From Garicola koreensis (GTDB taxonomy: Bacteria; Actinomycetota; Actinomycetes; Actinomycetales; Micrococcaceae), in NCBI RefSeq assembly GCF_014195445.1, contig NZ_JACIBT010000001.1:620001-684000 (forward strand): 64,000 nucleotides of DNA, written 5' to 3'. This document shows positions 35,649-47,811 of the stretch, in pieces. The translations under genes were made by a program, and so were the position numbers. Numbering within the stretch: position 1 is the stretch's first letter; every line of letters starts with the position of its first letter. The notes below the pieces were generated by a model that made no database searches, was not told where the DNA came from, and was given only the letters and a program-made list of their open reading frames with translations.

Positions 35649-37613
35649 TCACCTGGACTGCGAATCCAGGTCGCTGAGCCGCTCTTCGGCGGCGCGCAGC
35701 ACCTGGTGGCGCAGGTCTTCGGGGTGGACCAGTTCAATGTCGCCTCCGGCCTCCAAGCAGATGGTGATCGCCGTGCGGCGCGAGGCGAAGTGGGTGCGGA
35801 TGAACACGGAGCCGTCGCGGGAGTCTCTGCGCTGCAGCTCGGGGGCGAATCGCGGGGCCGCGGCGGCGAAGGGCGCAAAGCGCAGTACGACGCCGGTGAG
35901 TGAGTCGCTTGTCTTCTGCACGGCGGCCGGCCCGGCCTCGGTGCGTTCCAGCGCGTGGGCTTCGGCGCTGCGCGCCGAGTCCGGCAGCGGGGTCAGCGAC
36001 TGGAAGCGGTCGAACCGGAAGAGCCGCTCCCCGGCTGCGCTGCGGCACCAGGCCCGCAGGTAGATGTGCGGGCCGTCGTAGATCACATGCACCGGTTCCA
36101 CGCTGCGGTGCGAGGAGCCTCCGGCGGCGTCGGTGTAGTGCAGCTGCAGCGCGTAGTCCCCGGTGATGGCCGCTTCGATGACCCCCAACGCCTCGGAGTC
36201 GGCATCAGTGCGCTGCAGCGTCATGGCCTCAGCTGCCGAGGCGATGGACTCCGGCACCACGCCCATCACCTTCTGCTGCACACTGTGAGCCGCATCGGTC
36301 AGGTGCTGATGCTGCGCCGGTGAGACTTCGATCAGGGCCTTCAGCGCGATCAGCAGGCTCAGCGCCCCGGGTTTGGTCAGCGAGACGGGCCGGTGCATGG
36401 CCGCAGCCGAGGTGCCGTCGGGAACGGTGAGGATGATCGGCTCATCGGCGCCGAGGTAGTGCTCATCGAAGCTGGCCCGGTCCAGGGGAAGCTCCGGCTC
36501 CACGCTGACGTAGCGGCTCATGCCCACATTGGGGCCCGACTGCTCGATGCTCAGCAGGTCCCGGTGCAGCTGCTCGGCGGTGATGTGGTATTCCGAAAGC
36601 AGCCGGCTGGGCGGCACACCTTCGTTGTCCAGCAGGTAGGCGGTCATATTGATGACCCGGTCGGTGCTCAGCCCGATATTGTCCTTGCGCACCTCTGCGC
36701 CGACCGGCCGCAGCCGGCCCGGTTCCGGTGCCTGGCCGGAATGGGCGTCGATGACGGCCTGCAGGGCTTCGCGCGGCTCTTGGTATTCGGCCATGCGGCG
36801 CAGGATGGTCTGCGTCTGCCCGGCGTCGAAGTCCGGTGCGTTCGCCTGCTGCTCGACCTCGTCGCGTTCGGCGCTGCCCAGGTCCTTGGTCTTCAGCTCG
36901 ACGACGGCGTCCTGGATCCGGTCCAGCCTGAAGATCCGCTGTGCCCGGCGGTCCAGGTCGTGGCCGATTAAGTACCAGTGGCCCCGGCCTCCCAGGGCCA
37001 GGGGCACCGCACGTCGCCGCTGGGTGCTGCTGGGTCCGCGGCCGGTGTAGGTGAAGGTGATCGGCGTCCGCAGACCGATCAGGCTGATCTCCAGCAGCCG
37101 GTCCAGCTCTGTCGCCGAACCGAGGGAGGCCTGCAGGACGGTCGGTGCGCCAGGGTCTTCGGCGGCAGCTGGGTTCTCGGCGGTGCCGCTGAGCGCCCAC
37201 ATCGCGTGCTGCAGGCCGCGGACGCTGCTGGCGGAGAACAGCATTCTGGCCTGATGCAGCGCTAGGCGCTCCTGCTGGCTGAGCTGAAGATCGGGAAGCC
37301 CGTACTCCTCAGTGGGGATGCGGTAGCGGTGATCGCCGGTGAGGTCCTCAGACTCCTGAATCGGGATCCCGGCTGAGCGCAGGTACTGCTTATCGGAGCT
37401 GAACCGGCGCTCCAGGGCGGAGAGCTCCCGCTCCCGGGAGGCTTGGTCCAGGAATTGGGCCTCGCGGTAGCGGCCGGCGTAGCCGTCGACCTGCTGGTAG
37501 ATCTGCTCCTTGGTCAGCCCGTGCGGGCTGTGCTCCAGCACGCTCTGGTGCAGGGTCAGGCACCGGACCAGCATCGGGTCCGCCTGCACTGTCTGCTCCC
37601 CCTGCTGCGCCAT
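35649..37613 (-). CDS. pafBC: PafBC fusion, WYL-domain DNA-damage regulator
   Basis: A 654-residue natural fusion of PafB and PafC, which are separate genes in Mycobacterium. Each half has an N-terminal winged helix, a WYL domain and a WCX tail. The first WYL core is HWYLIGHDLDRRAQRIF with FRLDRI; the second is IYLRAWCRSAAGERLF with FRFDRF. In mycobacteria PafBC activates the LexA-independent DNA damage response. Arthrobacter has the same fused form. The N-terminus begins MAQQGEQTVQADPMLVRCL, so the ATG after QAD is an alternative start. It lies 4 bp after the FKBP gene and upstream of tatA. Confidence 0.88.
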   Translation of the reverse strand: MAQQGEQTVQADPMLVRCLTLHQSVLEHSPHGLTKEQIYQQVDGYAGRYREAQFLDQASRERELSALERRFSSDKQYLRSAGIPIQESEDLTGDHRYRIPTEEYGLPDLQLSQQERLALHQARMLFSASSVRGLQHAMWALSGTAENPAAAEDPGAPTVLQASLGSATELDRLLEISLIGLRTPITFTYTGRGPSSTQRRRAVPLALGGRGHWYLIGHDLDRRAQRIFRLDRIQDAVVELKTKDLGSAERDEVEQQANAPDFDAGQTQTILRRMAEYQEPREALQAVIDAHSGQAPEPGRLRPVGAEVRKDNIGLSTDRVINMTAYLLDNEGVPPSRLLSEYHITAEQLHRDLLSIEQSGPNVGMSRYVSVEPELPLDRASFDEHYLGADEPIILTVPDGTSAAAMHRPVSLTKPGALSLLIALKALIEVSPAQHQHLTDAAHSVQQKVMGVVPESIASAAEAMTLQRTDADSEALGVIEAAITGDYALQLHYTDAAGGSSHRSVEPVHVIYDGPHIYLRAWCRSAAGERLFRFDRFQSLTPLPDSARSAEAHALERTEAGPAAVQKTSDSLTGVVLRFAPFAAAAPRFAPELQRRDSRDGSVFIRTHFASRRTAITICLEAGGDIELVHPEDLRHQVLRAAEERLSDLDSQSR

Positions 37614-37617
37614 CGGT

Positions 37618-38019
37618 TCAGGCCTTGCGCACCTTCACCAGGTCGACCACAAAGATCAGCGTCTCGTTGGGGCCGATCGCGGCTCCGGCGCCGGCCTCCC
37701 CGTAGCCCAGGTGCGGCGGAATCTCGAAGCGGCGGCGGCCGCCCTCCTTCATCCCGATCAGACCCTGGTCCCAGCCCTGGATGACCTGGCCGATGCCGGC
37801 GGTGAAGTCCAGCGGCTTGCCGCGGTTCCAGGAGGCGTCGAACTCCTCCCCGGTGGACCAGGAGACACCCACGTAGTGGCAGGAGATCTCGTCGCCGGGA
37901 ACCACCTCAGCGCCGGAGCCGGGGATCATGTCCTCAATAACCAGCTCCTGCGGAAGCGGACCTTCGGGGAAGTCGACCTCTGGCCGGGTACGGTCATAAC
38001 TGCGCTGTCCGAAACTCAT
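37618..38019 (-). CDS. FKBP-type peptidyl-prolyl isomerase, cytoplasmic
   Basis: A 133-residue single-domain FKBP. Core motifs VVPGDEISCHYVGVSW, GEEFDASWNRGKPLDF, VIQGWDQGLIGMKEGGRRRFEIP and YGEAGAGAAIGPNETLIF give all main active-site residues, including the aromatic Trp and Tyr. It catalyses proline isomerisation in protein folding. There is no signal peptide. It is followed by pafBC after 4 bp and sits downstream of two lipoprotein genes, one of them also carrying an FKBP domain. Confidence 0.9.
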   Translation of the reverse strand: MSFGQRSYDRTRPEVDFPEGPLPQELVIEDMIPGSGAEVVPGDEISCHYVGVSWSTGEEFDASWNRGKPLDFTAGIGQVIQGWDQGLIGMKEGGRRRFEIPPHLGYGEAGAGAAIGPNETLIFVVDLVKVRKA

Positions 38020-38036: not shown

Positions 38037-38744
38037 CTACCCGTCGTGGGTGCCGTCTACGGATGTCGGATTCTCAAAGGATTCCAACGCCGCTTCTAAG
38101 ATTTCGTCAAAGTTCTCCCGATTCATAAAACCGGCTTCCACGACTATGTGGTTGTTGCCGTAACTCATCGCACCGACTCGGTAGTTCGGATCCGGTACGT
38201 CCTCCCCCTCAGAATCGTCGCGCGCACCCTTCAGCACGACTTCGAAACCGCTCAGGTCGCCAGACATTTGGTCAAACTCATAAACCGAATTAGACGAATT
38301 CTGATTCTGTTCTTCGGAACAAGATCCCCCTACAGCATCGAACGCCCCCGTTACATCTCCCTCAGCGGCGGTGCTCAGCAGATACGCATCAAAAATACCA
38401 TCCTGCCAATCAGAGTACGACGCAACTAAGGCCGCGTGAGTATCCACACTGCTTCGCCACAAATCATCGAGGACGTTCTGGCAATCACCCTGAACGTTTT
38501 CGAGGGCATTAAGCGCGAAGAACCCGCCGAGATACTTTTCCCGCAGCGAGAACTCTTCAATATCTAGAACCCTCGGGTCTCCGTCACTCTCGAATCCCGC
38601 CGGCAACTGACTTTCGCTCAGGACTCTATCGGTGAGTTGAGTCTCGGTCAGTGGTGCTTCGGGCATCGACTGTGAGGCACACCCCACCAACACCACGCTG
38701 GCAATGCAAGTAGTTACAAACGCTGAAATTTTCCTGGATATCAC
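38037..38744 (-). CDS. Lipoprotein of unknown function
   Basis: A 235-residue secreted lipoprotein: basic N-terminus, hydrophobic core and lipobox VVLVGC with Cys22. The mature part has Cys residues in NVQGDCQNVLD and VGGSCSEEQ that may form a disulphide, and no domain I recognise. The start is assigned to GTG 38744 because TAGACT lies 7 bases upstream; an ATG at 38783 would add 13 residues ahead of that promoter. The DNA here is clearly richer in A and T than its neighbours, suggesting transfer or relaxed constraint. It lies between two FKBP genes in the Pup-associated block. Confidence 0.65.
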   Translation of the reverse strand: MISRKISAFVTTCIASVVLVGCASQSMPEAPLTETQLTDRVLSESQLPAGFESDGDPRVLDIEEFSLREKYLGGFFALNALENVQGDCQNVLDDLWRSSVDTHAALVASYSDWQDGIFDAYLLSTAAEGDVTGAFDAVGGSCSEEQNQNSSNSVYEFDQMSGDLSGFEVVLKGARDDSEGEDVPDPNYRVGAMSYGNNHIVVEAGFMNRENFDEILEAALESFENPTSVDGTHDG

Positions 38745-38751
38745 CTTCAAG

Positions 38752-38757
38752 AGTCTA
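38752..38757 (-). promoter_or_regulatory. -10 box (TAGACT) of lipoprotein gene
   Basis: Minus-strand TAGACT ends 7 bases before GTG 38744, so the lipoprotein appears to have its own leaderless promoter within the operon. Confidence 0.5.
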
Positions 38758-38864
38758 CGGCTTGTAAATCTAGCCGTGCACACCGATTACGATTCCGCAC
38801 CCAACGTGCGCATGCCGACACCCTGCGAAGACGTTCCATTCGAATCCACGACAAACTTAGAAAC

Positions 38865-39956
38865 TCACTTGTCGGTATCTTCGCCTTGCTCCATCTGGTC
38901 CAGCATCTCCTGCAGCTCCTCTTCGGACATGTCCTCCGGCATGGGCTGCTGCTGAGGCTGCTGCTGAGGCTCGGGAAGGTCGTCAGGGCTGATCGCCTGG
39001 ACGATGTCGATGACGAAGATCAGGTGTCCGCCGGGCTGGCCGCCTTCGGTGAGTCCTTCATCGTCGGCGGCTTCGCCGTAGGCTTGTTCCGGCGGGATCA
39101 CCAGCATCAGCCGGTCGCCGACGTTATTTCCGGGGATGCCTTCAATCCAACCGTCGATCACACCCCCGGTCAGTGAGAATCCGAACGGTTGGCCGGCTTC
39201 ACCGTCCTCGGTCCAGGAGCCGTCGAACTCCTCGCCGTTCTGCCACTGCCAGCCGCGGTACTGGACGAAGAGCTGGTCGTCCTCGGCGATCTCACGGCCC
39301 TCGCCAGCGATCAGCTCCTCGGTGGCAAGCTCCTCGGGTGCTTCAGCCTCGGAGTCGTGGTTCTGCAGCTCTGGGGCTTCGCCGATCTCGTTGGTGACCT
39401 CCGGCAGGTCGCCGGACGGCTCCTGGACTTCGCCGTCAGCGTAGGCGGGGTACTGGTCCTCCAGTCGGAAGATGGCCAGCTGCTGATCGTGGGCGCCCTC
39501 GTCATCTGCCGGGTAGTAGATGGCCACATCGGAGCCGACCGTCACCCCCTCGGCAGTCAGCGCATCGAAGTAGAACTGATCAATGTCCATCCCGGTCTCT
39601 TCCATGCTGGGAAGCCAGGCGATCTGCGGAAGCTCGGCGTCGAAGTTGTGGCCCATCACATCACCGCTCTCCGGTGAGGCCGCCACCTGCCGAACCTCAA
39701 GGAGTGAGTCTTCCTTGACCTGCTCGCCGTCGCCGGAACGAAGCACCCGGGAGGCACCCTCGTCGGTGTCGACCGGGGAGTAGAGAACGACCTCGGGCTG
39801 GTTATCATCTCGAACATGAAGGTCAACGTCTAGAAGAGCATCAGAATCCCCCAACCCGGCAGCTCCAGACGGTTCAAAAAAGGATTCATCATCTTGACCG
39901 CATGCTGTGAGCAATAAAACGGCGGCAGTCGGCAGGGCAAAATTTCTAGTGCGCAT
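38865..39956 (-). CDS. Secreted lipoprotein with FKBP domain
   Basis: A 363-residue lipoprotein. The signal ends LLLTAC with Cys19. An uncharacterised N-terminal region (about 25-200) is followed by an FKBP domain at about 210-335, with DQLFVQYRGWQWQNGEEFDGSW, GVIDGWIEGIPGNNVGDRLML and IPPEQAYGEA as the isomerase core. The C-terminus is a Gln/Pro/Glu-rich tail (PEPQQQPQQQPMPEDM). It likely helps folding of exported proteins on the outer face of the membrane. It starts 32 bp downstream of the pafA stop, probably in the same transcript. Confidence 0.78.
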   Translation of the reverse strand: MRTRNFALPTAAVLLLTACGQDDESFFEPSGAAGLGDSDALLDVDLHVRDDNQPEVVLYSPVDTDEGASRVLRSGDGEQVKEDSLLEVRQVAASPESGDVMGHNFDAELPQIAWLPSMEETGMDIDQFYFDALTAEGVTVGSDVAIYYPADDEGAHDQQLAIFRLEDQYPAYADGEVQEPSGDLPEVTNEIGEAPELQNHDSEAEAPEELATEELIAGEGREIAEDDQLFVQYRGWQWQNGEEFDGSWTEDGEAGQPFGFSLTGGVIDGWIEGIPGNNVGDRLMLVIPPEQAYGEAADDEGLTEGGQPGGHLIFVIDIVQAISPDDLPEPQQQPQQQPMPEDMSEEELQEMLDQMEQGEDTDK

Positions 39957-39988: not shown

Positions 39989-41479
39989 TCAGATCAGCGG
40001 GGGCTCGTCGCGCTCGGGCTCGCCCAGCAGTGCGTAGCGGTCAGTCAGCGCCAACGAGGCCCCGCTCCCCCGGCGCTCATCCAGGGTGCGTTCACGCAGC
40101 TGACTGCTGCGGTCTCCGAGTTTGTCCAGCAGCGCATCAATGCGTGAATCGACGACGGCGAAGGGGTCTTTGAGCATCACCGCGTCCAGGGGCCGGTCGG
40201 TCAGCTTGTGGTGGACCCAGTCCACCGTGCTCTGCGCACCATAGGCCCGAGCAGTGGAGACGACCTGCCCGCGCAGCGCCGCCCGGGTGGCCGGCGGGGT
40301 GATCATCGCCTCGGTCACTGCGCCGGCGTCCAGCACATCGGTGGCGCGGCCGCGCCGGCGCAGCATGTGAAAGAGCCCCCGGTCGGGGTTGACATCGTGA
40401 TAGGCCATATCCACCTGCTCCAGGCGCCGGTGGCCCATCTCAAGGCCGCGGGCATCAGCGACCTCCTCGACGAGGCGCTTCTTGATCGCCCAGTCGATGT
40501 CGTGGTCGATCAGCGTGTGGTCCCCGGTCTCCACCGACTCCAGAGCACGCTCCCAGAGCTCCAGCACGGTCTCGACGTGCTCGTGGTGGGCGCCGTGCTC
40601 TGCGACAAAGCGTTGGGCCCGCTGCAGCAGACCGCGCTGGATCTGCACTGCGGTGTGGTCTTCGGCTCCGCGGACGCGCACTGCGGCGTGGCCGGTGATG
40701 TCGTGGCTGATGTGGCGGATGGCGCTGATCGGGTTCTCCAGCTCATAGTCGCCGATCGGCACACCGGCTTCGATCATGCGCAGCACCAGGTCGGTGGATC
40801 CGTAGCGCAGCAGCGCGGTGGTGGTGGACATATTGGAGTCGCCGACGATCACGTGCAGCCGGCGGTGGGTTGCGGCGTCGGAGTGGGGTTCGTCGCGGGT
40901 GTTGATGATCGGCCGTGCCCGGGTGGTCGCCGAAGAGATGCCCTCCCACATGTGATCGGCCCGCTGGGAGAAGGCGAAGTGGGCCTCGGTCTCATCCGTT
41001 GCCGGCACCACCCGGCCTGCCCCGCTGATGATCTGACGGGTCACCAAAAACGGCAGCAGGATGCCGGAGAGTCTGCGGAAGTGGGTGGTGCGCGGGATGA
41101 GGTAGTTCTCGTGGCTGCCGTAGGAGTTTCCCGCGGAGTCCACATTGTTCTTCAGCACGTAGATCTGCCCGCTGAATCCGTCTAGGTGGATGGCCTTCTC
41201 CGCAGCGACGGCCAGGTCATGCATGATCCGGTCCCCGGCGTTCTCATTGGCGATCAGATCGATCAGGTCGGCGCATTCGGCGCTGGCGTACTCGGGGTGG
41301 GAGCCGACGTCCAAGTAGAGCCGGGACCCGTTGGGGATGAAGATGTTGGAGCTGCGGCCGAACTCCACAACCGGCCGGAACAGGTAGCGGGCCAGCTCAT
41401 CGGGCGGCAGACCCCGGCCCTCCACGGGCCGGTGGGAGATGCCGAACTCAGTCTCGACGCCGAAGATGCGGCGGTCCAC
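39989..41479 (-). CDS. pafA: Pup-protein ligase
   Basis: A 496-residue ligase that joins the C-terminal Glu of deamidated Pup to substrate lysines using ATP. The N-terminal RRIFGVETEFGI carries the catalytic Glu, SRLYLDVGSHPEYASAE the catalytic Asp, and KNNVDSAGNSYGSHENYL and [20 protein letters not shown] the nucleotide site, all as in mycobacterial PafA. It starts at GTG 41479, only 3 bases after the pup stop, with AGAAGGGCGG inside the pup end as ribosome site. In most actinobacteria prcB and prcA separate these genes; here they are absent. Confidence 0.95.
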   Translation of the reverse strand: MDRRIFGVETEFGISHRPVEGRGLPPDELARYLFRPVVEFGRSSNIFIPNGSRLYLDVGSHPEYASAECADLIDLIANENAGDRIMHDLAVAAEKAIHLDGFSGQIYVLKNNVDSAGNSYGSHENYLIPRTTHFRRLSGILLPFLVTRQIISGAGRVVPATDETEAHFAFSQRADHMWEGISSATTRARPIINTRDEPHSDAATHRRLHVIVGDSNMSTTTALLRYGSTDLVLRMIEAGVPIGDYELENPISAIRHISHDITGHAAVRVRGAEDHTAVQIQRGLLQRAQRFVAEHGAHHEHVETVLELWERALESVETGDHTLIDHDIDWAIKKRLVEEVADARGLEMGHRRLEQVDMAYHDVNPDRGLFHMLRRRGRATDVLDAGAVTEAMITPPATRAALRGQVVSTARAYGAQSTVDWVHHKLTDRPLDAVMLKDPFAVVDSRIDALLDKLGDRSSQLRERTLDERRGSGASLALTDRYALLGEPERDEPPLI

Positions 41480-41482
41480 GCG

Positions 41483-41686
41483 CTACTGTCCGCCCTTCTG
41501 CACGAAGCTGCTGACGAACTCCTCAGCGTTGGACTCCAGGACGGTGTCGATCTCATCGAGCAGGCTGTCCAGCTCCTCGGCCTGCTGGCTCGCCTGCGGG
41601 TTGGCCTTCGCCTGCGCTGCCGCTTCGGGGCTCTGATCGTCTTCGCCGCCGGGACGGCGGGGCTGCTTCTGGGGCTGGGATGCCAT
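41483..41686 (-). CDS. pup: Prokaryotic ubiquitin-like protein Pup
   Basis: A 67-residue, Gln/Ala/Glu-rich, mostly disordered tag. The C-terminal half AEELDSLLDEIDTVLESNAE is the helix that binds the coiled coil of the ATPase, and the end SSFVQKGGQ carries the GGQ terminus that Dop must deamidate to GGE before ligation. AAGGAGG lies 7 bases before the ATG. It sits between dop (61 bp upstream) and pafA (3 bp downstream). Confidence 0.95.
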   Translation of the reverse strand: MASQPQKQPRRPGGEDDQSPEAAAQAKANPQASQQAEELDSLLDEIDTVLESNAEEFVSSFVQKGGQ

Positions 41687-41747
41687 CGGTGATCCTCCTT
41701 CAGGGCGTCTTACCCATATTAGGTCATGAACGTGGGTGCTTATTCCC

Positions 41748-43472
41748 TCATCGGCCGCTGCCGAGCAGCTTCTGCAGCGCCGAGATCATGCTGGGGGCAT
41801 CCGCAGCCGACTCCAGAACGGGTTCGGCCTCGGTGCGCCGGCCGGCCTCCGGTTCGGCCAGCCGCAGCCGCACCGGTGAAGAGGCCTCGTCGGGGCGCAG
41901 CAGGATCTGGTCCCAAGAAGCCCCGGCGACCAGGTGGCTGTAGTCGGAAATGAGCTTTCCGCGCAGCCAGGCCCGAGTCTCCTCCGGAGGGTGGGTCGCG
42001 GCCCAGGTGACCTGTTCGTCGCTGAACAGCCGACGCATCCGCCCGGCGCGGACCAGCCAGTAGTAGAGGCCCTTCTGCTCACGCAGGTCGTGGTACTGCA
42101 GGTCGATCATCCCCAGCCGCGCCGAGTCCCAGTCCAGCCCGTCGCGGCGACGGTAGGACTCTAAGATCTGCAGCTTCGCGACCCAGTCGACCCGGTCCGC
42201 GGCGCGGGCGGGGTCCTCCTCCAGATCGGTGAGGATCTCCTCCCAGGCTTCGAGCACCTCGGCGGTCTCGGTGTCCGGCACCGTGTGCGGCAGGCCGGGG
42301 CTGCTGGCCTGACCGGCGTGCTCCACTGCGGCCTGCAGGTACAGCCGCTGGATTTCCACTGCCGTCATGGGGCCGCGGTCGGTGCTCACCGTGGTCTTCA
42401 GGCTCGGGTCGTGGGAGACGGCCTTCAGTGCCGCCACCGGGTCGCTGAGCCGGATCACGGGGGCCCTGCCGGCTTCGATCATGTCCAGCACCAGGGCGGT
42501 GGTGCCCACCCGCAGCCAGGCGGAGTATTCGCTCATGTTGGCGTCGCCGATGATCACGTGCAGCCGCCGCCACGAGTCGAAGTCCGCGTGGGGCTCATCA
42601 CGGGTATTGATCATGGGTCGGCGCACCGTGGTCTCCAGGCCCACCGGCTCTTCGAAGAAGTCGGCCCGCTGCGAGATCTGGAAGCCGGCCTGCTGCGCCA
42701 GCTGGCCGATGCCCACCCGGCCGGCGCCGCAGAAGATCTGCCGGGTCGCGAAGAACGGCAGCAGGTGGGTGACCAGCTGGTCGAAGGCCAGGCTGCGCGG
42801 CACCAGATAGTTCTCATGAGCACCGTAGGAGACCGATTTGTTGTCGGTGTTGTTCTTATACAGCAGCACCTCTGGGGAGTTCGGCTCCCGGTTGAGCCTG
42901 GCCGCCGCGGCCCGGGCAACCTCGTCACCGGCGACGTCGTAGAGCACCGCACGTTTGGCCCCGATCGTCTCCGGCGCCGAGTATTCGGGGTGAGCGTGGT
43001 CCACGTAGAACCGGGCGCCGTTGCCCAGCACCAGGTTCATCAGCAGCTGCGGCTGGTCCTCGTTGAGCTGGAAGAAGTCTCCGCGCCAGTGGGCGGAGCC
43101 GGGGGCGTTGAACCCGCCGCGCTCGGCGGTGTCGGCCGGGCTGGGGTCACCTCCGGAGACATTGCCCAGCGCATCGCGGACCGACCCAGAGCCGGCCTCC
43201 TGCTCGGCGGCGTAACTGAGCGCCTCATCACTGTCGGTCAGCTGGGTGGGGTGGGCGGCTGAGCGGGGCAGCACCCAGCCGCGGGCATCGACCAGCGGTG
43301 ATTCTGACTGGTAGTCCCACTCGGTGCCGGCCACCGATCCGCCCGCTTCGGTGACGTGGGCGGCGTAGGCGTTGACCAGCTCGATGGACAGCGCCACGTG
43401 GTTGGCCTTCGGGTTGGCCGGAGCGTGGATCCCGTACTCGGTCTCCATGCCGATGAGGCGGCGCACGCTCAT
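41748..43472 (-). CDS. dop: Deamidase/depupylase Dop
   Basis: A 574-residue PafA homologue that deamidates Pup and removes it from substrates. Catalytic and nucleotide motifs are intact: [15 protein letters not shown] near the start, [18 protein letters not shown] with the catalytic Asp158, [18 protein letters not shown] and [19 protein letters not shown]. Residues 71-147, at the position of the regulatory Dop-loop, form a long acidic/Gly-rich insertion, making the protein longer than the usual 500 residues. The ATG overlaps the mpa stop by 4 bp (ATGA). Confidence 0.93.
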
Positions 43473-45034
43473 GGGTTCAGTCCCATTCCGCTGATCATGG
43501 CCCGCTGCTCGGTCATCTCGGCTTCGAGCGCGGCCTCCAGGTGCTCTGCGGTGAGCCCCTTGGCCGCCGGGTCCTGCTCATTGCTGAGGAACTCCTTGAT
43601 CGCGCCCTTCTTGGCCCGGTCCACCACGTTGGAGAGCACCGCACCGGACATGAACCCGGCCTGCTCCGGGTAGAGCCGGGTCACCACCGTGTTGATCAGC
43701 GCCTCGCGGGCAGCGACGGCGCCGCCGTGGTCGGCCATCAGGGAGGCGCGCAGCGGCACATCGGAGCCTAGGTGGATGCGCAGGATCTCCCGCGCCCCAT
43801 CGGCGGAGGGCCGCTGCACCCGGATCTTCACGTCCAGCCGGCCCGGCCGCAGGATGGCCGGGTCAATCATGTCCTCACGGTTGGAGGCGCCGATGACGAT
43901 CACATTGTCCAGCGACTCCACCCCGTCGATCTCGGCCAGCAGCTGCGGCACGATCGTGGTCTCCGCGTCGGAGGAGACCCCGGTGCCGCGGGTGCGGAAC
44001 AGCGCTTCCATCTCGTCGAAGAAGACGACGACGGGCCGGCCCCCGGAGGCCCGCTCACGGGCGCGGGAGAAGATCACCCGGATATGGCGTTCGGTCTCAC
44101 CGACGTATTTGTTCAGCAGCTCCGGGCCCTTGATGTTCAGGAAGAAGGCGCCGTCGCCGTTCTCATCGGCCAGCGAGGAGGCCACGGCCTTGGCGATCAT
44201 GGTCTTGCCGGTGCCCGGCGGGCCGTAGAGCAGGATGCCCTTGGGGGCGAGCAGGCCGTGCTCCTCGTAGAGGCCGGCGTGCAGGAAGGGCAGTTCGACG
44301 GCGTCGCGGATCTGTTCGATCTGATCGGCCAGGCCGCCGATGTCGGCGTAGGAGACGTCGGGGGACTCCTCCAGCACCACGTCCTCGACCTCGGAGAGCG
44401 CGACGACTTCGGTGGCGGTGCCGGTGCGCAGGTCCACGATGACCGCGTCGCCGATGCGCACCGGGTGACCTTCGGGCTTATCGGTCACCGGGGTCAGGCG
44501 GACCACCCGTTCTTCCTCACCGCGGGTGATGATCACCAGCCGGTCATCGGGAAGCACCTCTTTGATGCGGGCGACCTCGCCGGTGCGCTCCGGGGCGCCG
44601 ACGGCGATGATGCTGAGGTTCTCGTTCAGCAGCACTTCGGCTCCGGGAATCAGCTCCTCGGTGCTGATCAGCGGGGAAACGGAGACCCGCATCTTGCGTC
44701 CGGCGTGCAGCACATCGCAGCCGGCGGCGGTGGCGGCCTCGATTTCGCGGCCCTCGGCGGCGTCGCGGGCTGGGTGGTAGCGGATGACCGAGGCGTAGGT
44801 GAACGGTGGGTTCCCGTCGGCCTCCAGGGCCTCCTTGAGCTGCTCGATCTGCCCGCGGGTGGACTCCAGCATGCCGGTGATCCGCTCATTGTGCCGCCCG
44901 GCGGTCTGCAGCTGCTGCTCCAGGTCGCGCTGGCGGTGCCGCAGGTTGTCGATCTGCCGGTGCGCCTGCTCCAGCTTCTGCTGGGCCTGCTGTGCGGCGT
45001 CGCGGTGTTCGGCGTCATTGTGGTCAGCGGCCAT
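43469..45034 (-). CDS. mpa: Proteasome-type AAA+ ATPase Mpa/ARC
   Basis: A 521-residue ring ATPase. Residues about 10-65 form the coiled coil that captures Pup ([18 protein letters not shown]), followed by tandem OB folds and the AAA+ module with Walker [13 protein letters not shown] and Walker [13 protein letters not shown]. Mpa normally ends in a Gln-Tyr-Leu type motif that opens the 20S gate; this one ends [11 protein letters not shown] with no tyrosine. The ATG at 45034 has AGGAGGT 5 bases upstream; an in-frame ATG at 45133 is rejected. Its start overlaps the trmI end by 11 bp. Confidence 0.92.
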
Positions 45035-46097
45035 CGGGCACCTCCTGTGCTGCCTCGGCGATGGACTGTGCGTGGCTGCGTACTCGGCGGGCCTTCCTGC
45101 CGGAGACCGTCCGTGTTCCCAGGTTAGCCTCATCCCAGACCGGGCCCTGATCAGCTGTTTCCTGACCTGCCTGCCAACTGGTGCCGGCCCAGGCGGCGGT
45201 GTCCTCAGCGGCGGGCTCGGAGACCTTCTCGCGCTTCTTCAGCGCCAGCGGCTGCTGGCCATCGGCTAAGCGCCGGACGGAGAGCAGGAACCCGGTGTGG
45301 GCGACCATCCGGTGGTCGGGCCGCACGGCCAGGCCGTCCAGGTGCCAGGTGCGCAGCATGATCTCGTGGGCCTCGGGTTCGGTGAAGCCTCCGGAGTCGC
45401 GGACGGCTTCGGCCAGTCGGGACAGCTGGGTCACTGAGGCCACATAGCTGACCCAGACTCCGCCGGGCGCCAGCACAGTGGAGACCATGTCCAGACAGTC
45501 CCAGGGGGCGAGCATGTCCAGCACCACCCGGTCGACGCTGCCGGGGCGCTCAATGTCTGTGGGCACCACGGCGGCGTCGCCCTGGTGGATCTGCCAGCCG
45601 GGGTGGGCGTCGCCGAAGAAGGCGTCCACATTGGCCCGGGCAATCTCGGCGAACTCTTCGCGCAGCTCGTAGGAGTGCAGAGTGCCGTGTTCGCCCACCG
45701 CCCGCAGCAGCGAGATGGACAGTGCCCCGGAGCCGACGCCGGCCTCCAGCACGTGGGCGCCGGGGAAGACGTCGGCGAGTTGGACGATCTGCGCGGAGTC
45801 CTTCGGGTAGACCACTGTGGGTCCGCGCGGCATGGAGAGCACGAAGTCGTTCAGCAGCGGGCGCAGCACCTGGTACTGGTGCCCGCCCTCGTTGGTGACC
45901 ACGATGCCCTCCGGCTGGCCGATGAGCGCGTCGTGGTGCAGCACCCCGTGGTGGGTGTGCCACTGCCCGGCCTCGGCCAGGGTGATGGTGGATCGCCGGC
46001 CCTTGTAGTCGGTGAGCTGCACGCGTTCGCCGGCCTTCAGCGCCCCGGTGCGCATATGGGCGCCGACCGCCCGGCCTGTGGTGCTGTGATCGCTCAT
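45024..46097 (-). CDS. trmI: tRNA (adenine-58-N1)-methyltransferase TrmI
   Basis: A 357-residue Rossmann methyltransferase that methylates N1 of A58 in the tRNA T-loop. It has an N-terminal beta domain ([18 protein letters not shown]), the SAM-binding core [20 protein letters not shown] with the following acidic YELREEF, and the catalytic region [12 protein letters not shown] basic and disordered C-terminal extension of about 70 residues follows. The ATG overlaps the HAD gene stop by 4 bp and the end overlaps mpa. The trmI-mpa neighbourhood is conserved in actinobacteria. Confidence 0.92.
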
Positions 46098-46816
46098 GCG
46101 CTGGCTGGTGCGGCGCTGACGGGTACCGGGCTGCGCAGCAGGGCCCGCAGGTCATCGACGCCGAGGCCGGCCAGGCTGTCCACCAGGTGCCAGGCCCCGT
46201 GCTCGGGCAGCTGCGCGTAGTGGGGCACGGCCACCGTGACCATGCCGGAGGCCACGGCGGAGGCGGTGCCCGGGATGGAGTCTTCCACGGCGATGCAGCG
46301 GGCACGGTCCAGCTCCTCGCCGGTGCGCTGGGCGTGGTCGGCGGCCATCATCGTGAAGGCTGAGTGGTAGGCCTCGGGGTCAGGTTTTCCGGCGGAGACC
46401 ACGTCCCCGGTGACCACGCACTCCAGGCTGCCGGCCGGCAGGGCGGAGACGATGGCCTCGGCCAGCGGCGCGAAGCTCATGGTCACCAGCGCGCATCGTA
46501 CGCCCTCGTCGTTGAGCGCCTGCAGCAGCTCACGGGCGCCGGGGCGCCATGGGATGCGCTCAGCGCAGCGGGCGGCGACGTCGGCGGTGAGGTGGTCGAT
46601 GATCTCACGGTTTCCCATGTCCACACCGGCTCCCTGCAGCACGGAGGCGGAGTACTCCAGGGCTTGGCCGACCAGCAGGTGGGCCTGCTCCTGACTCCAG
46701 GCGCCTCCGTAGGACTCCACGAGTTCGCGCTCAGCGGCGATCCAGTAGGGCTCAGTGTCCACCAGTGTGCCGTCCATATCCCAGAACACGGCCTGCAAAT
46801 CTGACATGGTCTCCAT
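46094..46816 (-). CDS. HAD superfamily phosphatase
   Basis: A 240-residue haloacid dehalogenase-like phosphatase. Motif I FWDMDGTLVDTEPYW supplies the nucleophilic and acid/base Asp, motif II is LVTMSF, motif III is near GKPDPEAY and motif IV ends CIAVEDSIPG. A helical cap lies between motifs I and II, as in beta-phosphoglucomutase-like proteins. The substrate is unknown. Start ATG 46816 has GGGGAAG upstream; ATG 46807 is an alternative. It is the first gene of the HAD-trmI-mpa-dop-pup-pafA operon. Confidence 0.88.
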   Translation of the reverse strand: METMSDLQAVFWDMDGTLVDTEPYWIAAERELVESYGGAWSQEQAHLLVGQALEYSASVLQGAGVDMGNREIIDHLTADVAARCAERIPWRPGARELLQALNDEGVRCALVTMSFAPLAEAIVSALPAGSLECVVTGDVVSAGKPDPEAYHSAFTMMAADHAQRTGEELDRARCIAVEDSIPGTASAVASGMVTVAVPHYAQLPEHGAWHLVDSLAGLGVDDLRALLRSPVPVSAAPASA

Positions 46817-46844
46817 CGTACTTCCCCGGCGCAGGCACTGGGAC

Positions 46845-46850
46845 TACTGT
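46845..46850 (+). promoter_or_regulatory. -10 box (TACTGT) of PAC2 gene
   Basis: TACTGT ends 7 bases before the GTG at 46858. The 41-bp gap between the divergent HAD and PAC2 starts must hold both promoters. Confidence 0.4.
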
Positions 46851-46857
46851 GAGGAAC

Positions 46858-47811
46858 GTGACTGAGGAGAATCGCCCACCCGACTCTGAGGACCCTGACG
46901 GCCCAGCCGGTGGCCTGGACAGGGCCAAGCTGCTGGCTGCCCACCTGCGCAGCATCGCCGACGAGTCCGCCGAGGAGACCGGCCGGCCCACGGTGATGGT
47001 GCTGGCCTTCGAGGGCTGGAACGACGCCGGCGGGGCAGCCTCAGCCGCGGTGCGCAGCGTCGCCCACGCCCTGGATGCGGACCTGGTGGAGAAGCTCACC
47101 GAGGAGGAGTACTACGACTTTCAGTTCTCCCGGCCCAAAGTGGTCAACAATTCCGGCCACCGCGAGATCATCTGGCCGGCGACCACCATCCTGCGCGCCA
47201 CGCCCCCACGTGGTGAGTTCGATGTGCTCTTCGTCCACGGGGTGGAGCCCAGCTTCCGCTGGCAGGCCTACACCGCAGACCTGCTCACCAAGGCCGCCGA
47301 ACACGAGGTCACTGCTGTGGTGCTGATGGGTGCGCTGTTGGCCGATGTGCCGCACACTCGGCCGATTCCCACATCGTTCTCCAGTGAGGATTCCCAGCTG
47401 CGTGCGCTGCTGGACATTGATGAGCCCACCTATGAGGGTCCGACCGGGATCGTCGGGGTGCTCTCCCACACTGCCCATCAGGCTGGTGTGCCGGCCGTCT
47501 CGCTGTGGGCGGCGGTGCCGCACTACGTGGGCCAGGCCCCCTCGCCGAAGGCGCAGCTGGCACTGATCCGCAAGCTCGAGGAGCTGCTGGGGCTCTCCCT
47601 GGACACCCACGAGGCCGAAGAGATCGCCGAGGACGCCGCCGCCTGGGAGCGTGGGGTCGACGATCTGGCCGAGGACGACGAGGAGATCGCCGACTACGTC
47701 AAGCGCCTGGAGGAGGCCACCGACACCACCAACCTCCCCGAAGCCTCAGGCGAGGCGATCGCCGAAGAGTTCGAACGCTATCTGAAGCGCCGCAAGCCCC
47801 CGGAGAAGTAG
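46858..47811 (+). CDS. PAC2 family protein
   Basis: A 317-residue protein of the PAC2 (proteasome assembly chaperone 2-like) family, recognised from VMVLAFEGWNDAGGAASAAV, the EEYYDFQFSRPKV segment and GVLSHTAHQAGVPAVSLWAAVPHYVG. In archaea and eukaryotes PAC2-like proteins help 20S assembly; bacterial members are uncharacterised. It is divergent from the Pup operon with only 41 bp between them, which would suggest a functional link, but no 20S subunits are encoded nearby. GTG 46858 is chosen for its leaderless-type -10; GAGGA is also close upstream. Confidence 0.8.
   Translation: MTEENRPPDSEDPDGPAGGLDRAKLLAAHLRSIADESAEETGRPTVMVLAFEGWNDAGGAASAAVRSVAHALDADLVEKLTEEEYYDFQFSRPKVVNNSGHREIIWPATTILRATPPRGEFDVLFVHGVEPSFRWQAYTADLLTKAAEHEVTAVVLMGALLADVPHTRPIPTSFSSEDSQLRALLDIDEPTYEGPTGIVGVLSHTAHQAGVPAVSLWAAVPHYVGQAPSPKAQLALIRKLEELLGLSLDTHEAEEIAEDAAAWERGVDDLAEDDEEIADYVKRLEEATDTTNLPEASGEAIAEEFERYLKRRKPPEK

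Follow-up and report, generated by a model that had tools for sequence, protein, structure and literature searches.

Pup genes kept without a detected 20S proteasome in Garicola koreensis and its relatives, beside an ATPase that appears to have lost its docking parts

The stretch of DNA analyzed here (the window) consists of 64,000 nucleotides of Garicola koreensis (Micrococcaceae; assembly GCF_014195445.1, contig NZ_JACIBT010000001.1, positions 620,001 to 684,000) and contains a locus for pupylation, the tagging of proteins with Pup. Four genes, mpa/arc, dop, pup, and pafA, form a head-to-tail row on the minus strand, from 45034 to 39989 of the window. The first (43469..45034) encodes the Pup-binding AAA ATPase, hereafter ARC, with 521 residues counted from the ATG and recognizable OB and AAA domains (TIGR03689, 613 bits). 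It overlaps by 4 bases with dop (41748..43472), the gene of the 574-residue depupylase/deamidase (TIGR03688, 591 bits), which is followed after 61 bases by pup (41483..41686; 67 residues, stop codon TAG; TIGR03687, 72 bits; PF05639, 77.5 bits). The Pup ligase gene pafA (39989..41479; 496 residues, GTG start; TIGR03686, 636 bits) begins after a gap of only 3 bases. All four genes pass the curated NCBIfam cut-offs, and their coordinates and profile matches bear out the order and spacing given in a preliminary description of this DNA. Pup itself ends in GGQ (41494-41486), and a GGQ-ending Pup requires deamidation by Dop. Across 15 loci of Nesterenkonia, the genus in which the window's own genome is counted, 11 show GGQ and four show GGE (G002, G004, G009, and G019, i.e., loci L041, L094, L060, and L047). 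Since both endings occur, the requirement for deamidation by Dop would vary inside the genus.

The 3-base junction between pup and pafA (41480..41482, minus strand) is, by comparison of junctions, the site of prcB and prcA in relatives. Canonical Pup-proteasome loci, such as those of Arthrobacter and Streptomyces, have the same arc, dop, pup, pafA order, with trmI, FKBP, and pafBC genes nearby. Unlike the window, they carry prcB-prcA between pup and pafA, and their ARC ends in GQYL wherever this end lies inside the fetched stretch. The junction of the window has no space even for a prcBA remnant, as the preliminary description had noted of the genes themselves. It had also named intact prcBA elsewhere in the genome as the finding that would speak against its reading, and a profile search for the Proteasome family (PF00227) gave no match in the window's own genome. 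Since this assembly is only 79.92% complete (rpoB likewise was not found there), the absence of 20S rests on its congeners. PF00227 was found in 0/30 Nesterenkonia genomes, own included, and in 0/26 of good quality. The comparison of pup-pafA junctions that had been proposed points the same way, each of the 15 Nesterenkonia loci read having a closed junction of 3-6 bases. The junction measures 3 and 4 bases in the loci of two named Nesterenkonia, L157 and L158, both without prcBA. The closest named relatives by PafA, among the best 80 of 593 matches, are N. ebinurensis (77%) and N. halophila (69%), and the N. ebinurensis locus, L157, is the same as that of G006, identical over 12,101 bases. 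In the window's own genome, we also found no match to the proteasome activator Bpa/PafE (PF10759) and no frame ending in GQY[LF]-stop, a pattern that, in the 20S-bearing control G060, picks out ARC and Bpa plus one four-residue frame.

We then read the ARC ends of 66 loci (65 fetched, plus the window). The GQYL ending is present in 22 of the 27 genomes with 20S but in one of the 39 without (G037); in another of these 39, G001 (L055), the ARC frame is broken after the sensor region and the end is unreadable. Bpa is distributed in the same manner, with 20/27 versus 1/39. ARC of the window ends in ...MISGMGLNP, GQYL being absent. It aligns with the solved Mpa in its coiled coil and in the OB and AAA regions, the alignment with the Mycobacterium protein (7px9_A, 609 residues) covering residues 52-489 and, weakly (14.7 bits), 512-557. 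Mpa residues 490-511, as well as everything past 557 of 609, have no counterpart, and 490-511 includes the loop (501-505) of the β-grasp hairpin. In the passages of two papers available to us, this loop touches the α ring, its alteration lowered degradation, and it forms with GQYL the two described contacts to the 20S (PMC9599533, PMC8755798). Judged by spacing, nine of the 14 readable Nesterenkonia have lost the hairpin and five keep it. The hairpin loop reads ANGD, ANGE, or similar in the tail-bearing loci with 20S, and is altered in most others. By alignment, ARC of the window has lost both its proteasome-docking tail and its hairpin. To call the cluster complete apart from the protease, as the preliminary description did, is therefore too strong. 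The ARC ends of hairpin-less Nesterenkonia (43472-43500 in the window) show short GLGL/GMGL-like stretches, possibly a mere helix end.

What remains of the locus appears to be under constraint. We computed pairwise dN/dS by the NG86 method for six Nesterenkonia pairs, which is rough on diverged high-GC genes, with the trmI-like gene next to the locus as a housekeeping comparison. Values range over 0.10-0.31 for mpa, 0.09-0.24 for dop, 0.08-0.27 for pafA, and 0.08-0.31 for pup, against 0.05-0.27 for trmI. As the Pup genes lie well below 1 and near trmI, this indicates constraint rather than decay, and we conclude from these ratios that purifying selection acts on all four.

Neither the retention of Pup nor the absence of 20S is peculiar to this genus. 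In the family, PF00227 is present in 239 of 395 sampled genomes and in 19 of 32 genera; 13 genera lack it in every sampled genome, and one group, g21, lacks it in part (genus names of coded groups derive from locus matching, among the best 80 of 593 matches). Pup, in contrast, is present in 66/66 genomes picked to cover all 32 genera, 27 of them with PF00227 and 39 without. Across the order (119 sampled genomes), Pup was found in 110 and PF00227 in 73, all within these 110, which leaves 37 genomes with Pup alone, none with 20S alone, and nine with neither. Pup without 20S is a widespread and already known arrangement. The suggestion that this locus is a special place to look for a nonproteolytic role is not supported on that count, while the role itself remains the best reading and has been published for Corynebacterium.

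The corynebacterial precedent, which the preliminary description had invoked, agrees with the part of the literature available to us. In corynebacteria, pup stands directly before pafA, and 20S-less genomes encode an ATPase without the C-terminal proteasome motif (PMC3511204, seen in part). In this the window resembles C. glutamicum: pup adjoins pafA, no 20S is found, and the ATPase is kept without that motif. Unlike ARC of the window, which has no hairpin, Mpa/ARC of C. glutamicum has a hairpin stretch with an altered loop, IDGSV (excerpt of PMC8755798). Sections of a review call the loss of 20S secondary and describe a subgroup without proteasome genes; a figure legend mentioning this subgroup names the Pup locus of Micrococcus luteus (PMC8223512). 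Judged by title, none of the papers among the matches listed for Nesterenkonia or Yaniella and proteasome is on the subject. Likewise, among those listed for Micrococcaceae and pupylation or prcB, none names Micrococcaceae or makes the present comparison. We presume that M. luteus belongs to the 20S-less subgroup and to the same family.

Two kinds of relatives appear to have been caught midway. The first is the single genome G037, where PF00227 has no match (group g9) and where the pup-pafA gap (L065) is 272 bases long and holds one open frame. This frame fuses the leader region of PrcB (37 residues, E 2e-7) to the C-terminus of PrcA (E 4e-11), while ARC and Bpa (L267; shortened at the front) both still end in TGQYL. 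On these matches, the gap is the scar of a prcBA deletion in a genome that still has its docking parts. Its Bpa without 20S differs from the published statement that there is no Bpa where there is no 20S. Eight other short pup-pafA junctions searched for prcBA remnants gave a best E of 0.013 and no scar, leaving G037 as the one such case among the junctions searched.

The second kind is the converse. In g2 (one genome) and in four of the six genomes of g21, which we call the Yaniella group because locus L217 (Candidatus Yaniella excrementavium) is 84% identical in DNA to G076, the 20S is kept, yet the ARC docking tail is absent in all five genomes and Bpa has no match in any of them. ARC touches a helix at the start of PrcA. 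This start reads SPEQ.MKDRADF[AS]RKG in 21/21 tail-bearing loci with a readable PrcA, SPQQ.MEDRADFARAG in the 3/3 Yaniella-group loci read (L049, L059, L064), and SPQQLMKDRADFARQG in g2 (L099). The docking helix is thus altered in all four readable of the five tail-less 20S genomes and, with the ARC tail lost as well, both sides of the contact have changed while the protease stayed. The protease itself appears intact. In the loci read, prcBA stands in its ancestral place and order, PrcB retains the catalytic positions 1, 17, and 33, and dN/dS in the Yaniella group is 0.05-0.09 for prcB and 0.06-0.11 for prcA (two pairs). By these ratios, the surviving 20S of this group is under purifying selection. 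A search for another activator, covering GQY[LF] tails only, found no plausible candidate in G118, G134, G177, and G030. The frames with this ending have 4-31 residues, except for two, with 65 (G134) and 128 (G177) residues, which were judged noncoding by eye and are not common to all three Yaniella-group genomes. A 20S without a known activator has a precedent in Propionibacterium acnes, which lacks both ARC and Bpa (part of PMC4254994). There, however, ARC is wholly missing, whereas in the Yaniella group and g2 it is kept without its tail.

In a tree of RpoB and RpoC (51 genomes, 2460 columns; the window's own genome represented by five congeners), Nesterenkonia (g1) forms one clade with g2, g4, g14, g16, and g21 (support 100). 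The ARC tail is absent in every readable genome of this clade. A count that allows nothing but losses gives, for the family, 11 losses of the 20S and six of the ARC tail. The rooting of the family tree is not fixed, and over all leaf rootings the number of 20S losses runs from 11, the minimum, to 14. On this tree, the coupling between ARC and 20S seems to have disappeared earlier than the protease.

The strongest rival to that order is that the Yaniella group and g2 regained the 20S by gene transfer, in which case loss of the coupling did not precede that of the protease. This would require fewer events within the clade, where 20S is confined to g2 and some genomes of g21. In a tree of PrcB and PrcA, moreover, the branch placing g2 and g21 has a support of 82 and its neighbor 45, and their position is not firm. 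The same tree joins g2 and g21, with a support of 100, as sister groups at the end of a long stem and not nested in any other genus, and their prcBA occupies the ancestral place in the ancestral order, both of which argue against transfer. We regard a regain as unlikely, though it is the alternative to be taken most seriously. If it did not happen, pupylation might have separated from the proteasome, with both still at work, in the ancestor that unites Nesterenkonia with the Yaniella group and the sister genera. Bacteria of this type would run a Pup unfolding cycle beside a separate 20S that is fed in another way, and Nesterenkonia would be the end state after the protease was dropped. We put this forward tentatively, as a scenario with slightly less than an even chance.

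As no 20S was found, Pup can hardly be a proteasome mark here. Together, these observations probably describe an actinobacterial Pup system that has gone through a secondary, stepwise loss of the 20S, and that tags proteins, unfolds or disassembles them, and untags them without proteolysis. In the proposed cycle, Dop would convert the GGQ end of Pup to GGE, after which PafA would attach Pup to lysines of its targets. The coiled coils of ARC would hold Pup while the target is drawn through the pore, so that the target, or the complex it belongs to, falls apart. With ARC no longer docking on a proteasome, Dop would strip Pup and the protein would be reused. As for its evolution, the contact between ARC and 20S would have been lost first, in the ancestor that Nesterenkonia shares with the Yaniella group and the four sister genera. 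Several separate deletions of prcBA would have followed, and part of Nesterenkonia would later have lost the ARC hairpin too. Several points weigh against this reading. That the system tags, and unfolds without degrading, is deduced from the genes, as is the order of events. The losses-only count presumes no regain of 20S in g2 or the Yaniella group, and its six tail losses hinge on a branch of support 60 that joins g11 and g12 to the Nesterenkonia clade, the number being seven otherwise. All four Pup genes reach their highest dN/dS in a pair that includes the window's genome (G000-G025; mpa 0.31). Finally, no concrete substrate emerges from this 80%-complete genome, where we found no ferritin-class protein and only a Dps-class one.

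This last point bears on the possibility that the system mainly releases iron by disassembling ferritin. Reviews, of which parts were available to us, give ferritin as the pupylation target in C. glutamicum (PMC8223512, PMC5515868, PMC12288473). We classed matches to PF00210 mainly by bit score, those of at least 110 as ferritin class and those of at most 91 as lower. NCBIfam classing covered seven readable fragments out of nine proteins (L255 and L263 being set aside), none at the curated cut-off, and the matches of G055 were left unclassed. Disassembly of ferritin in C. glutamicum was reportedly described by Kuberl in 2016, in an original that we know through reviews. Of the 21 20S-less genomes sampled, 11 have a ferritin-class match, which speaks for this explanation. 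In the other ten, the window's own included, there are only lower-scoring matches, and Pup is kept in all ten. Within Nesterenkonia, three of seven genomes have a ferritin-class match, the window's own and three of the six others having none. The lower-scoring matches were called Dps by NCBIfam in G000, G003, and G044, the three readable of the ten, and Dps could be an alternative substrate. These ten genomes speak against ferritin as a general target, and it is probably not the general reason for the retention of Pup; as the main function here, iron release from ferritin is improbable.

Could ARC instead feed its Pup-tagged substrates into a different peptidase, for example ClpP1P2? Unfolding without a protease would be wasteful, and the GLGL/GMGL-like ends of hairpin-less Nesterenkonia ARC faintly resemble ClpP-binding loops. 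ARC tails, however, are variable, no gained domain was seen, nothing replaces prcBA at the junction, and the locus gives no sign of another partner (no search was aimed at ClpP, Lon, or FtsH). We consider such a handover very unlikely. More doubtful still is the view that the cluster is a functionless, decaying remnant left after loss of the protease. The broken ARC frame of the congener G001 (an assembly error or a real loss) and the loss of ARC parts would fit it, but dN/dS ratios so close to those of trmI, as well as the persistence of Pup in every one of the 66 genomes through about 11 losses of 20S, do not. That 20S genes were simply missed, unassembled or elsewhere in an incomplete assembly from which rpoB is missing too, has next to no chance in view of the uniformly negative genus, its closed junctions (L157 and L158 among them), and the lack of GQY[LF] endings in the genome itself.

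In the papers considered, arguments on the role of pupylation without a proteasome have so far come from a single organism with a single target. With Pup kept throughout some 11 losses of 20S, this family offers intermediates in both directions, i.e., a genome whose protease is gone and whose tails are intact (G037), and genomes whose docking is gone and whose protease is intact (Yaniella group and g2). Such relatives, caught midway, suggest how proteasome-less pupylation can arise. Their comparison could address which target sustains pupylation once the protease is gone, and how a 20S functions when no activator docks on it.

The genes around the locus are those expected from canonical loci. 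Upstream, also on the minus strand, lies the trmI-like tRNA methyltransferase gene (45024..46097; PF14801, PF08704), a usual neighbor. On the other side, pafA is followed on the same strand by its usual neighbor, a gene for an FKBP-type isomerase (38865..39956; PF00254), by a second one (37618..38019; PF00254), and by a pafBC-like regulator that, by its domain matches, combines WYL, HTH_PafC, and WCX in a single frame of 654 residues (35649..37613). Between the two FKBP genes, 38037-38783 encodes a protein with a lipoprotein-like start, as judged by eye. Beside the locus of this 20S-less bacterium, at 46765-47811, there is a PAC2-family gene (PF09754, 175 bits) that also weakly matches an NCBIfam family of proteasome assembly chaperones. 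As for PafA, comparison of Nesterenkonia ends shows a C-terminal extension of about 40 residues (39992..40117, minus strand) that finishes in EPPLI. Thirteen of 15 Nesterenkonia PafA proteins end in [DE]PP[LV]I, one in EPPLV, and that of G020 differently; in two other 20S-less genera, PafA ends in PPFI (G061) and PPII (G064). An AlphaFold2 model, which was built on an alignment of 16 sequences and yields confidence values rather than contacts, gives mean pLDDT values of 76-92 for ten-residue blocks over 441-490 and of 49 for the last six residues. This suggests that the extension mostly packs on the enzyme.

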